A DNA stretch of 64,000 nt, from the NCBI GenBank assembly GCA_017517805.1, contig JAFWYD010000008.1:62001-126000 (forward strand), given 5' to 3'. The notes beneath the pieces are model-generated. The model was given only the letters and a program-made list of their open reading frames with translations, did not search any database and was not told the DNA's origin. How positions within the stretch are numbered: position 1 is the first letter of the stretch; every line of letters starts with the position of its first letter. Both the position numbers and the translations under genes were made by a program. Below are positions 59,581 through 64,000 of this stretch, piece by piece. The DNA comes from Akkermansia sp. (GTDB lineage Bacteria > Verrucomicrobiota > Verrucomicrobiia > Verrucomicrobiales > Akkermansiaceae).

Positions 59581-59629
59581 GTCTTTTGAATGTCGTATCC
59601 GGTGCAAAATGATACGTGGGGGGATATGA

Positions 59630-59656
59630 AGATACCCGGGGTAGTCCCGGGTATCT
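59630..59656 (-). terminator. possible terminator after the glycan operon
   Basis: AGATACCCGGG (59630-59640) pairs perfectly with CCCGGGTATCT (59646-59656) around a five-base loop. It has only a short T-run on the minus strand. Confidence 0.5.
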
Positions 59657-59682
59657 TTGGAAAATCATGCGTGGTGGTTGGT

Positions 59683-60540
59683 TCAGCCCAGGAGGCACCA
59701 GGCGGTGCAGGCTGCGGCGATGAGCACGAGAGCCGCCAGAATCCAGCCGTAGGGCGGGCGCGATGGGGGAGGCGGTGGTTGCTTGATGTCGGTCTTGCCG
59801 CGCAGCCAGTCTTCACCGCCGTAATAGATTTTCTGGCGCGTGCCGGCGATGACTTTGTGGCGGTTGTACCACTTGTAGTCCTGCTGCAGCCACACATAGG
59901 TCGGCGGCAGGACCTTGATATGCCGGTTGAGCAGGTAGGCATTGAGGTGTGATTCGTCGTGCCAGAGAGCGATGATGTCGTTTTTCAAATCCTCATCCGT
60001 GGCCTGCATGATGGATTCGCACATGGCCTTGAAGGCTGCTACAGTACCGCCATTGAAGCCACCAGCGTAGTAATGGGAACCCTGGCCGTAGGGGATATAG
60101 GCCTTCGAAGCCGGGTTGCGGTCGTAGGTGTAGCGGTCCGGCTTGCGGCGCACAGACTGCCGGTGCTCAGCCGCGACGAGGTATTCATGCTCAGCCCCTG
60201 GCAGGATGGAGGAGTCGATGGTTTTGTAGAAGATGTAGGTGGAGTTGATAAAGAAGATGTAATCGCAGTCTTTCCACTCCTCATAGTGTTTCATGAAGAG
60301 GTGGTAGCGCATCAGGGTCATAAAGGGCCAGGGCTGGTGCTCAATCTCGTGGTAGCTCAGCTCGATACCCTCCGGCAGTCCCTGCCGGAAAAACGCCTCG
60401 CCTGCATCGGAGAAAAGATAAATCTTCCGCTGCGTGCCTGGCAGGAATTTTTCTGCAAAACTCTCGATGAACTCAGGCCAGAATACGGTGTACCGGCCTG
60501 TTACAATGTAGAAGATGCCAATTTTCAGGGGGGCGCTCAT
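59683..60540 (-). CDS. GT6-family glycosyltransferase with C-terminal membrane anchor
   Basis: A 285-residue enzyme of family GT6, which includes the ABO blood-group and alpha-1,3-galactosyl transferases. Matching blocks are FYIVTGRYTVFWPEFIESF, YDRNPASKAYIPYGQG...YYAGGFNGG and WHDESHLNAYLL (193-200). The metal/substrate motif is NST (99-101), where mammalian enzymes have DxD and known bacterial ones NxN. Pro-rich residues 255-263 lead into a hydrophobic C-terminal segment (264-284), so the enzyme is probably tail-anchored. The start is 60540 (MSAPLKIG); a longer reading from 60597 overlaps the upstream gene. The likely product is an alpha-1,3-linked Gal or GalNAc on surface glycan; the acceptor is unknown. 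Confidence 0.86.
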   Translation of the reverse strand: MSAPLKIGIFYIVTGRYTVFWPEFIESFAEKFLPGTQRKIYLFSDAGEAFFRQGLPEGIELSYHEIEHQPWPFMTLMRYHLFMKHYEEWKDCDYIFFINSTYIFYKTIDSSILPGAEHEYLVAAEHRQSVRRKPDRYTYDRNPASKAYIPYGQGSHYYAGGFNGGTVAAFKAMCESIMQATDEDLKNDIIALWHDESHLNAYLLNRHIKVLPPTYVWLQQDYKWYNRHKVIAGTRQKIYYGGEDWLRGKTDIKQPPPPPSRPPYGWILAALVLIAAACTAWCLLG

Positions 60541-60562: not shown

Positions 60563-61417
60563 TTAACGGGGCGTGCGCATCTTGTGCTTGACGACAAAGA
60601 GCGGAATACCCAGAAGCTTGATGGTTTTTCTGGTGCCTGCCACTTTGACGGTGAGGAGGGGAATCAGATTGAACAATCGCCAGGAATAGGTGTGCTCGCA
60701 TTCGGAGAGATAGGCCTGGCTGAGCTCCGGGTACTTGGTCTGAGCCCAGCAGACCATGCGCTGGTGCGCATTGCTCATCTTGGTTGATTGCTGCTTGCTG
60801 GTGTTGGTTTCGTGCAGGCGGTACCTGAAGAGCACCTCCGGCAGGTTGTGAAACTGCGTGTGCTCCATGAGTTTCAGCCACAGGCGGTAATCCTCTGCCG
60901 GGGAGTATTCTTCTTCGTAATGGATGCCGTGCTCCACCAGTACCGATTTGCGCAGCATTGAGGCCGGGTGCATGATGACGCATTCGTGGGTCATGGCCTT
61001 TTTGATGGCGTAGTCATTCTCCGGGAAGATGATGAGCCGCTTTTCGGGGAATACCTCGGCCCAGCTGCTGCATACTCCGGTTTCCGGGTGCGCATCCAGA
61101 TACTGCACTTGTTTTTCCAGTCGCTCCGGCAGGGAAATATCATCGTGGTCAAAAACGGCCAGATACTCACCCCGGGCCAGTTCCAGCATCTTGTTGCGGC
61201 TCGGGGTAATCCCCATGTTCTGCTCGTTGCGCTCGTAGCGGATGCGGGGGTCGGAATATGAGGCAATGATTTCATCCAGATGCGTGTTGTCCGGAGAATC
61301 ATTCAGAATGAGCAATTCGAAGTCCCGGAATGTCTGGTTGAGAATGCTCTCGATGGCTTCGCGCAGGTGGGGTTCCTGCGTGTTCCAGATGGGCATGAGA
61401 ACGGATACTTTGGGCAT
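60563..61417 (-). CDS. family-2 glycosyltransferase (GT-A)
   Basis: A 284-residue cytoplasmic or membrane-associated glycosyltransferase. The nucleotide-sugar site begins VSVLMPIWNTQEPHLREAIESILNQTF and continues with ELLILNDSPDN, and the metal motif is DHDD in YLAVFDHDDISLPERL. An ED pair appears in SPAEDYRLWLKL. No membrane helix. The C-terminus carries a basic, hydrophobic tail, IKLLGIPLFVVKHK, nearly the same as the end of the neighbouring protein at 61459. It sits between the rhamnan-synthesis-F-like gene and the GT6 gene, all read in one direction with gaps of 22-41 bases. Sugar specificity cannot be told. Confidence 0.87.
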   Translation of the reverse strand: MPKVSVLMPIWNTQEPHLREAIESILNQTFRDFELLILNDSPDNTHLDEIIASYSDPRIRYERNEQNMGITPSRNKMLELARGEYLAVFDHDDISLPERLEKQVQYLDAHPETGVCSSWAEVFPEKRLIIFPENDYAIKKAMTHECVIMHPASMLRKSVLVEHGIHYEEEYSPAEDYRLWLKLMEHTQFHNLPEVLFRYRLHETNTSKQQSTKMSNAHQRMVCWAQTKYPELSQAYLSECEHTYSWRLFNLIPLLTVKVAGTRKTIKLLGIPLFVVKHKMRTPR

Positions 61418-61458
61418 AGGAAATATGTGGTGGTGGGTGGGTGCGCCTCTGTCGGCGG

Positions 61459-62316
61459 TCAGTTTTTTCTGCCTTTCTTGTAATAAACAGGAATTTTCAG
61501 CAGTTTGATGATGCAGCCTCCGTTCTTGTTTTCTTTCCGGAGGTAGATAAAGCGCCAGATGCGGTGGCAGATGTAGTAGAAAAGGTTCTGGAGATGGAGG
61601 GCGCGGCGCTCGGATTCCGGGGTGTAGACATCCCGGATATCATAGCCCTGGGCGGTGATGACCATGCCAAGAAAGCGCTCTACGGCGTGCGAAATGCTGA
61701 ATTTGAGTTCCCGGTCGGGGATTTCGAATTCTTCATCAGCCAGCAGATTCCGGACTGGAAGCATGAGCTCTGCCCGGCACATGAACATCGTGCCGCAGAT
61801 GTAGCGGCTGTTCTTTTCCTGCAGTCCGCAGCTGGCCAGCATCTGCCTGCTCCATTCCCACGCTTCGGGGGTAGCTGGCTCTGCATCATGTATCAGCACA
61901 TGGTGCCCCACCATACCAAGCGTCGGTGTGGTTTCAAATGCCGCGATGCATTTGGGCAGATTCTGCGGCTCGGCGTAGGAAAACAGGTAGTTGCGCCACC
62001 TGGCACCCGAGACCAGCACCTTCTTCACAAAGGTCTGCTGCATGATGTTGCGCTTGGTGTGCAGCTTTGCAATGTAGCTGTACTGGCTCAAGTCGACGGC
62101 GTTGAGCACCCGGACAAATGGCCCTACATCAAATCCACGGTTCGGTACCGGCAGCACATGCTCGAAATCCTCCAGCGCCCGGGGCATTTCATCATTCCCC
62201 TCTACGTAGGTCACCCAGATTTCGTGCGGGTATTCCCGGAATGAGGCCAGAATGCGCCGTATCTCGGGAAGCATCTCAATGTAAAATGCGTGCACGTGGA
62301 TGAGAATGGGCTTCAT
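61459..62316 (-). CDS. rhamnan-synthesis-F (RgpF)-type glycan protein
   Basis: A 285-residue protein whose core (residues about 35-230) matches the RgpF/PF05045 family: VLPVPNRGFDVGPFVRVLNAVDLSQYSYIAKLHTKRN, RWRNYLF and SRYICGTMFMCRAELM. This family takes part in building rhamnose-containing polysaccharides and other O-antigens. The C-terminal tail IIKLLKIPVYYKKGRKN is basic and amphipathic, like that of the adjacent GT2. It is the first gene of a three-gene operon ending with the GT6 enzyme, behind a TTGACA-type promoter. Whether the sugar is rhamnose here is not shown, and no dTDP-rhamnose genes are in the window. Confidence 0.8.
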   Translation of the reverse strand: MKPILIHVHAFYIEMLPEIRRILASFREYPHEIWVTYVEGNDEMPRALEDFEHVLPVPNRGFDVGPFVRVLNAVDLSQYSYIAKLHTKRNIMQQTFVKKVLVSGARWRNYLFSYAEPQNLPKCIAAFETTPTLGMVGHHVLIHDAEPATPEAWEWSRQMLASCGLQEKNSRYICGTMFMCRAELMLPVRNLLADEEFEIPDRELKFSISHAVERFLGMVITAQGYDIRDVYTPESERRALHLQNLFYYICHRIWRFIYLRKENKNGGCIIKLLKIPVYYKKGRKN

Positions 62317-62440: not shown

Positions 62441-64000
62441 TTACTTTCCCTGAATCTGCTGTTTTACCTGTTGAATGAGGACCTCGCCAATCATAGCGGA
62501 GCCAGCAGGCGTGATGTGGTTGTTGTCTCTGAACAATATGACACCATTCTCAATTGCTCTGGCTTCCCCGTTCTTGAAGAAGAGGGGGGAGGGGTTGATG
62601 AGTTTGCACAACCCCTCGGCCTCCAATGTTCGCAAAATGCCGAGAGCCTTTTCGTAACGCTCCAGATATTCTGGCTCTGTGCACACGAATGCGGGGGTAT
62701 CATTGACCGCCTGGGTGCGTTTCAGATAGCGCGCGTAGGTCAGGATATTATCGTTCTGGAATGCTGGCAATGGCTCTATCAGGAAGACTGTCTTTCCAGC
62801 GGCCTTCACCAGCTGAAGGAATTCCCTGAGCTGGGGAATGTGGGACTCCATGCCCTTGTTTTCTACTGCCTGGTGATTCCAGTCGGTCGGCATGCGATCC
62901 CCACGGGCCCAATGATGGCCGACTATGACAACTTTGAGCTCGGGGTGGGCTTCCAGCCAGCGAAGGAAGGCTTCACCTTTTTCCCGGTTGAAGAAGTAGC
63001 TGGGGTCATTGGGGAAGCTCACGTGGCGGTTCCAGTAGGGAATCATGATGGTAGTGAGCTGAACACCCGAGATGCCGGATTTCCAGGCGTGCAGGTCCAG
63101 ACCAGACATCAGGTGCTGCCCATGCGAGTCTCCGATGACGACAAACTGCGGGCTGAGTTCCTGGTTGCCCAGGGCCATGAGTTCAATGGAGTTGTTGAGG
63201 GCGGCCTGGTTGTAGGCAAAGCGCTGCCATCCTGCATTGGTCTTGATGGCTGCTTTATCAAATGCTCTCCAGATATCTGAATCAGGGCGGCAGCTCTTCA
63301 GGTCGCCGTTGTATGAGGGCAGGGCTACGGCGTTTGCCTCAGCATTCCAGTATGCGCGCAATCCCTTTGTTTTGTGGATGGCCTGGCTCATGCCCCATGC
63401 ACTTACGCAGAGCACGATGCATACCCAGGGTTTCAGTTTTCTGGTTTCCACGCCATACCAGAAGACCCAGGCCACCAGGAAGCTGACTCCCAGTATCAGG
63501 AGTGATGCTTCCCATCCCGGTGCCTGGAAGGTGGCTCCCTTGTAGGCTACCAGCAGTGGCATGTGCACCAGGTACAAGGAAAATGATATGGCCCCGATAC
63601 CCCTCATGAGCGGGTTGTCCAGCAACTTGACCGCAGGGCTGCCTGGCAGGTAGCGGATAATCAGGATAGTGCCCAGCACCACGACCGGGGTCAGATGGGC
63701 AGCGCGTTCATCGTGCAGAATGGAGGGTATCAGCACCATGAGGAGCCCCGCAATACCCAGGATGCATTCGCGCCAGCGTTTGCTGCCTGGTGCGGGAAGC
63801 AGGAGGATAAGGCCACCTGCCAGCAGGGTCCAGAGCCGGGGGAAGGTTGAGTAGTAGGAGACATCCGGGCTCTCTAGTGAGCAGCCGCAGGCATTGAGCA
63901 ACAGGCAGATGCCGGGTGCCGTGCTGGTGAAAAACGAGGCCAGCCCCACCCCCCACAGCAGCACATGGGCCAGTTTCCTGGAGACGCGGCTGCAGCACAG
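62441..64000 (-). CDS. OafA-type membrane O-acyltransferase with SGNH domain (cut by window edge)
   Basis: Open to the right window edge, so the N-terminus is missing; at least 519 residues are visible. The first 190 visible residues are membrane helices of the acyltransferase-3 type, ending with SFSLYLVHMPLLVAYKG and an ETRKLKPW boundary. The C-terminal part (about 250 residues) is an SGNH-hydrolase-like domain with VVIGDSHGQHLMSGL (block I Ser) and NNHITPAGS (block V Asp/His). Such proteins acetylate LPS O-antigen or other surface sugars. It lies just upstream of, and in the same direction as, the GT operon, so they may modify one glycan. Confidence 0.88.
   Translation of the reverse strand: MCCSRVSRKLAHVLLWGVGLASFFTSTAPGICLLLNACGCSLESPDVSYYSTFPRLWTLLAGGLILLLPAPGSKRWRECILGIAGLLMVLIPSILHDERAAHLTPVVVLGTILIIRYLPGSPAVKLLDNPLMRGIGAISFSLYLVHMPLLVAYKGATFQAPGWEASLLILGVSFLVAWVFWYGVETRKLKPWVCIVLCVSAWGMSQAIHKTKGLRAYWNAEANAVALPSYNGDLKSCRPDSDIWRAFDKAAIKTNAGWQRFAYNQAALNNSIELMALGNQELSPQFVVIGDSHGQHLMSGLDLHAWKSGISGVQLTTIMIPYWNRHVSFPNDPSYFFNREKGEAFLRWLEAHPELKVVIVGHHWARGDRMPTDWNHQAVENKGMESHIPQLREFLQLVKAAGKTVFLIEPLPAFQNDNILTYARYLKRTQAVNDTPAFVCTEPEYLERYEKALGILRTLEAEGLCKLINPSPLFFKNGEARAIENGVILFRDNNHITPAGSAMIGEVLIQQVKQQIQGK

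Follow-up and report, generated by a model that had tools for sequence, protein, structure and literature searches.

How would a blood-group-type glycosyltransferase be held in a bacterial cell when its only hydrophobic segment lies at the very C-terminus, and what glycan would it serve? We met this question in a 64,000-nucleotide stretch of an Akkermansia genome (the window), in which a GT6 enzyme with NST in its active-site motif and a C-terminal tail anchor had been predicted. Mammalian GT6 enzymes are N-terminally anchored type II Golgi proteins. Enzymes of this family make A, B, alpha-Gal and Forssman epitopes, and people carry natural antibodies to these. Bacteria are among the suspected causes of this natural immunisation.

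Results

The window encodes an intact GT6 protein

The gene occupies positions 59683..60540 of the minus strand, with its ATG at 60540 and its stop codon ending at 59683, and encodes 285 amino acids in an intact frame. The predicted coordinates were therefore correct, and the translation fixes the strand as minus. The ATG lies 22 nt past the stop codon of an upstream GT2 gene. The family assignment was borne out far beyond chance by Pfam PF03414 (E=1.3e-34) and by PDB entry 4ayj (E=3.5e-41). With 119.9 bits against a cut-off of 25, the PF03414 match assigns the protein to CAZy family GT6, while NCBIfam NF041524 scored 227.3 bits, under its own cut-off of 250. The minus-strand translation and the Pfam and PDB matches rule out a chance open reading frame or a wrong strand. 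GT6 is present as one copy in the window's genome, and the nearest named relatives among the best 80 of 232 loci are metagenome-assembled genomes of Akkermansia and Akkermansiaceae. Genomes that carry these loci share a genus-level group with the window's genome, which marks the organism as an uncultured Akkermansia.

The closest solved structure, 4ayj, is BoGT6a of Bacteroides ovatus, a metal-independent enzyme of the blood-group-A type. We modelled the window protein with AlphaFold2 from a 54-sequence alignment (A2) of this protein and public genomic loci, with no membrane and no partners, and obtained a mean pLDDT of 95.5 and a pTM of 0.89. A Foldseek search with the model ranked BoGT6a first (4cj8, E=3.4e-24, 33% identity), followed by human GTA and GTB. 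The top PDB matches, 4cj8 and 3v0p among them, identify a GT-A fold. The human ABO transferase GTA (PDB 1lz0 and others) shares both fold and family with the window protein (E ~1e-27, 30% identity by structure). However, GTA is Mn-dependent, carries DxD, is anchored by an N-terminal helix and works in the Golgi lumen, whereas the window protein has no DxD, has its putative anchor at the C-terminus and presumably exposes its catalytic domain to the cytoplasm.

Catalytic and donor-binding residues

All three predicted GT6 blocks are present: AYIP (residues 147-150), YYAGGFNGG (residues 157-165; 60046..60072, minus strand) and WHDESHLN (residues 193-200; 59941..59964, minus strand). In the alignment with BoGT6a, the window protein keeps Y17, W71, T75, N99, H126, T138, A159-G160-G161, W193-H194-D195-E196 and R247, and thereby the equivalents of BoGT6a Trp66, His122 and Arg243. 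The triplet A159-G160-G161 stands at the donor-selectivity position and is AGG in both enzymes; the human triplets there are LGG in GTA and MGA in GTB. By analogy with BoGT6a, the AGG triplet would favour GalNAc over Gal as the donor. Glu196 corresponds to the catalytic Glu192 of BoGT6a, whose role is described in PMC3961637. The conservation of Glu196 and of the donor loop would fit a retaining alpha-1,3 transfer of Gal or GalNAc.

The two residues that hold the diphosphate in BoGT6a, Lys231 and Arg243, have their equivalents in K237 (codon at 59830..59832, minus strand) and R247. Lys237 was assigned by a gapless reading back from the YGG motif in relatives. Automatic alignments put R235 there, off by two residues because BoGT6a is two residues longer in this region. 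Two donor contacts from the BoGT6a list (PMC3961637) are changed in the window protein, Asn69 to Met74 and His239 to Glu243, and Gln236 stands ahead of the catalytic Lys where Asp is usual.

The third position of the NST motif

The NST codons (residues 99-101; 60238..60246, minus strand) lie at the DxD/NxN position, as predicted, and align with Asn95-Ala-Asn97 of BoGT6a, so that Asn99 equals Asn95 and Thr101 equals Asn97. In BoGT6a, Asn95 at the start of NXN touches the ribose, the phosphate and the N-acetyl group of the donor; Asn97, the second Asn, makes no substrate contact (PMC3961637). Asn99 is invariant in alignment A2. The first Asn was also found in 80 of 80 loci from genome_contigs; at the third position, 74 of them have N, 3 have D and 3 have T. 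Because these are the best 80 of 232 and were found with patterns partly containing the motif, the counts are biased towards the query. Within the window's own clade, the five Akkermansia members carry NST, NSD, NGD, NAD and NAN. For a 71-row tree constructed with the three motif columns removed, parsimony gave five changes to or from NxT. Outside the clade, NxT occurs in Akkermansia fusion proteins of about 790 aa (NGT), two Alphaproteobacteria and one Melainabacterium. NST itself was confined to the window protein among the sequences compared.

The original prediction had taken NST to be a new motif variant. As a claim of a catalytic novelty this is not supported, given a position free of contacts in BoGT6a and a column that drifts between N, D and T within the Akkermansia clade. 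Its expectation that NST would not be common in bacterial enzymes was right, but residues vary at the third position and NxT turns up repeatedly, which rules out NST as a unique kind of motif. With Asn in the first and Thr in the third place, the protein lacks the Asn at both DxD positions that marks the metal-independent NXN subgroup. Judged from the alignment, NST is a drifted NxN, and drift of this kind is ordinary where a residue does not touch the substrate. Metal independence would be expected, since neither Asp of DxD is present.

The viral GT6 proteins are of the other type: 80 of 84 have DxD. The alignment used as query retrieved 80 viral GT6 loci, almost all DxD, while a scan of viral_contigs with the single window protein as query gave no match.

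Several GT6-like proteins of unusual architecture were seen along the way. The Akkermansia proteins of about 790 aa (L004-L008, L010 and L012) carry the GT6 domain (NGT) at the C-terminus, and their roughly 500 N-terminal residues have no Pfam match and contain a DDDD stretch. Proteins of other genera of the family (L016 and L017-L020) end in a GT6-like domain; the N-terminal part of L016 matches GT8 and this protein keeps DAD, while L017-L020 have lost the motif. Four viral contigs (L130, L132, L150 and L152) hold two GT6 genes close together, the second with a divergent donor triplet (QGS or QGC).

A hydrophobic C-terminal tail in most of the clade

The predicted run of five prolines and closing hydrophobic helix are both present. 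PPPPP (residues 255-259; 59764..59778, minus strand) forms the spacer between the catalytic domain and a helix in the AlphaFold2 model at residues 264-284 of 285 (59689..59751, minus strand), which we regard as a putative transmembrane tail anchor. The tail reads YGWILAALVLIAAACTAWCLLG, and its 20-residue hydrophobic segment, WILAALVLIAAACTAWCLLG, has zero charged residues. The maximum Kyte-Doolittle (KD) value over 19 residues was 2.42 in the tail compared with 1.03 in residues 1-255. This tail value was reached anywhere in the protein by 32 of 20,000 shuffles, so a hydrophobic tail by chance is unlikely. The segment is the only one of its kind, lies within about 30 residues of the C-terminus, and no N-terminal signal or transmembrane segment precedes it, as in the bacterial C-tail-anchored proteins described in the literature. 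None of those named there is a glycosyltransferase.

The tail is common to most of the clade. Four of the five intact members (the window protein, L024, L036 and L023) end in a linker and a transmembrane-like segment. Their last 31-33 residues consist of a linker, K/R-rich in the three relatives and proline-rich in the window protein, and a hydrophobic segment of 17-21 residues with a KD value over 17 residues (KD17) of 2.2-2.7. The relatives' tails are YCILTALAIVLAAGILHWARWL (L024), YIAIAVAAAVLFSCLYIIFFS (L036) and CLIIAACVLAALGAAWYAWS (L023). These three proteins are 47-51% identical to the window protein and differ from it in their motifs (NAD, NGD and NSD); they belong to uncultured organisms from horse, goat and other sources, and two of the three adjoin GT11 fucosyltransferase genes. 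The same length and place of the tail in relatives rules out a sequencing artefact or frameshift. The fifth intact member, L025 (= L002), has no tail, which makes the tail dispensable for the fold. A sixth, decayed member (L013:1486-1900) has an unrecognisable N-terminal part and one in-frame stop, and such a tail is still readable in it.

A tail with KD17 >= 1.9 was absent from the 77 other genomic loci (best 80 of 232 scored) and from the 84 viral proteins; the highest value among these 77 loci was 1.76, in Chitinophaga alhagiae. Among the GT6 proteins sampled, this putatively membrane-spanning type of tail was thus seen only in the window protein and the majority of its close relatives. Many other bacterial GT6 proteins have short basic or amphipathic C-terminal extensions. 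The notion that the bacterial relatives are soluble needs qualifying, as full-length BoGT6a carries a 17-residue lipid-binding-like C-terminus that was cut off for crystallography to lessen aggregation (PMC3961637). Compared with it, the helix of the window protein is strongly hydrophobic. By this analogy, the Akkermansia clade may represent a transition in which a peripheral association with the membrane became an integral one.

From the helix, its hydrophobicity and its presence in most of the clade we infer membrane insertion, in agreement with the predicted anchor. Rough sums on an apparent-insertion-energy scale, without position weights, favour insertion for the window protein (-2.7) and L036 (-3.1) and are borderline for L023 (-0.6) and L024 (+0.4). 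The weaker tails of L023 and L024 are still plausible anchors because the segments of E. coli tail-anchored proteins need less hydrophobicity than those of other membrane proteins (PMC6794478). The positive-inside rule and the cytosolic donor would place the catalytic domain in the cytoplasm.

The gene cluster ending at GT6

GT6 is the last gene of a minus-strand run that begins with RmlA, RmlC, DUF1796, RmlD, RmlB, UDP-glucose dehydrogenase (Ugd), an epimerase and a TOD1-like transferase. It continues with a hexapeptide acetyltransferase, a TupA-like ATP-grasp protein, an AT3-SGNH acyltransferase, RgpF, GT2 and GT6. In the window, the upstream neighbours are the GT2-type glycosyltransferase (60563..61417; PF00535, 1.5e-29), the RgpF-like rhamnan synthesis protein (61459..62316; PF05045, 4.4e-17) and the AT3-SGNH sugar O-acyltransferase (62441..64000, extending past the window end), all on the minus strand. 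The part beyond the window was read on L194, where the window position equals the L194 position + 56000. Judged by its dTDP-rhamnose and UDP-uronate genes, the locus is a surface-polysaccharide cluster with rhamnose and uronic acid.

A 12-bp hairpin (59629..59657, minus strand) with an RNA fold z of -3.40 follows closely on the GT6 stop codon; 0 of 200 shuffles were as stable. It has no long T run and was for this reason not picked up by the pattern scan. The hairpin is the probable transcription end of the cluster, and mutS comes after it. Several cluster proteins (window 60563-62316, L194:8954-12633) share a hydrophobic-basic stretch of the type LGIPLFVVKHK, C-terminal in GT2 and RgpF and N-terminal in the TupA-like and TOD1-like proteins.

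Fucosyltransferase neighbours of GT6

Bacterial GT6 genes often stand beside fucosyltransferase genes. A GT11-like gene was found in 51 of 80 bacterial GT6 loci (L023-L102, the best 80 of 232), and in 21 of them it lies within 100 bp. Of the 50 loci among the 80 with 4.5 kb or more of sequence on either side, 32 have such a gene. We built the GT11 profile ourselves and refined it by iteration; of 8 single-domain matches re-tested, Pfam confirmed 7, and the one that failed, L014, is outside the 80 loci. Pfam also confirmed two fusions, GT6 then GT11 in a Planctomycetota protein (L067) and GT11 then GT6 in one from Gastranaerophilales (L098). This neighbourhood speaks for an H-type acceptor of bacterial GT6 enzymes in general.

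Within the clade of the window protein, five genomes carry GT6, and in three of them (G045, G051 and G056) GT11 lies within about 2-3 kb of it, twice as part of a GT10-GT11 fusion; gmd is present in all three. GT10-GT11 double fucosyltransferase fusions adjoin GT6 in two Akkermansia (L023:4490-6421 and L025:8778-11081, both minus strand). In the window and the next 20 kb, no GT11 was found. Elsewhere in the window's genome, on contigs other than the window's, there are a single GT11 (contig of 3.5 kb) and a single GT10. In this assembly, which is 90% complete, gmd was not found above the cut-off (best 66 of 415 bits), nor was FKP found. The short contig (L203; G000 contig C14, 1-3512) carries the GT11, a further open reading frame beside it and a protein with Gb3-synthase-like and Galactosyl_T domains, and is another possible host-like glycan locus of this genome. 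The literature searched gave nothing on surface glycans of Akkermansia that carry Lewis antigens; one matching paper, on an Akkermansia genome, mentions GT61 and not GT6.

Discussion

We consider it likely that the gene encodes a membrane-tethered, metal-independent GT6 enzyme of the BoGT6a type that finishes a surface glycan of an uncultured Akkermansia. The enzyme would be a retaining alpha-1,3-glycosyltransferase, probably using UDP-GalNAc (or the Gal donor), and would add a late or terminal residue. Its catalytic domain would lie in the cytoplasm, tethered to the inner membrane, the site at which lipid-linked glycans are assembled. One transmembrane helix at the C-terminus would serve as the tether, a C-tail anchor with N-in/C-out topology that is a trait of its own Akkermansia clade. 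In the active site, the first Asn of NST would do the work through its contacts with ribose, phosphate and N-acetyl, and the third position would be tolerant. The gene context, with rml, ugd, RgpF, GT2 and O-acyltransferase genes ending at GT6, supports the proposed surface location of the glycan.

The acceptor is where the most serious competing reading arises. The same anchored enzyme could act on the H antigen (Fuc-alpha1,2-Gal) and give the cell genuine epitopes of the blood-group-A-like (or B-like) type, in mimicry of the host, a reading to which we give a real chance, though somewhat below even. BoGT6a, with the same AGG triplet, makes A-type products, and GT11 genes accompany GT6 in many bacteria, including three genomes of the clade; the window's own genome also has its GT11 and GT10. 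Against this, GT11 is absent from the window and the next 20 kb, the neighbouring genes make dTDP-rhamnose and UDP-uronate, and the 90%-complete genome yielded neither gmd nor FKP, in contrast to the three relatives with gmd. On gene content, an A-type epitope is possible and seems less well supported for the window protein than for its relatives. The cluster's own sugars, rhamnose and uronic acid, are not informative on the acceptor, and the host-antigen mimicry of the original prediction stays at the level of the possible.

That the C-terminal helix is no membrane anchor, and serves instead in dimerisation or partner binding or as a peripheral lipid-binding tail, we find unlikely. The BoGT6a tail, the short basic or amphipathic extensions elsewhere in the family and the borderline sums of L023 and L024 are compatible with it; the uncharged segment of the window protein and the clearly favourable sums for it and L036 speak against it, as do the relatives' basic linkers, which lie on the cytosolic side in line with the positive-inside rule. 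It is still less probable that we are looking at a drifting GT6 that has lost its activity, in which NST, Gln236 and Glu243 would reflect relaxed constraint. Several clade-conserved residues are indeed altered only in the window protein, a sister genome holds the decayed GT6 gene, and the distribution of GT6 across the genus is patchy (15 of 76 genomes). Yet the frame is intact, the catalytic-loop and invariant residues are all kept, intact relatives also have NxT, and the cluster that GT6 closes is itself intact. The tethered, active BoGT6a-type enzyme thus remains our preferred reading.

Rather speculatively, every member of the clade may serve a surface-glycan locus of its own, in some cases one with GT10 or GT11 fucosyltransferases, so that a mucus symbiont could display host-like ABH/Lewis structures. 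In the phylum of the Dysgonamonadaceae locus, we found GT6 in only 3 of 395 genomes.

For the family, these results warn against giving much weight to the last residue of NxN. A C-tail anchor would be the reverse of the architecture of the animal enzymes and would offer a simple test case of a soluble transferase becoming membrane-bound. For the organism, its GT6 clade places Akkermansia, a gut genus that lives in mucus, among the candidate sources of natural immunisation.
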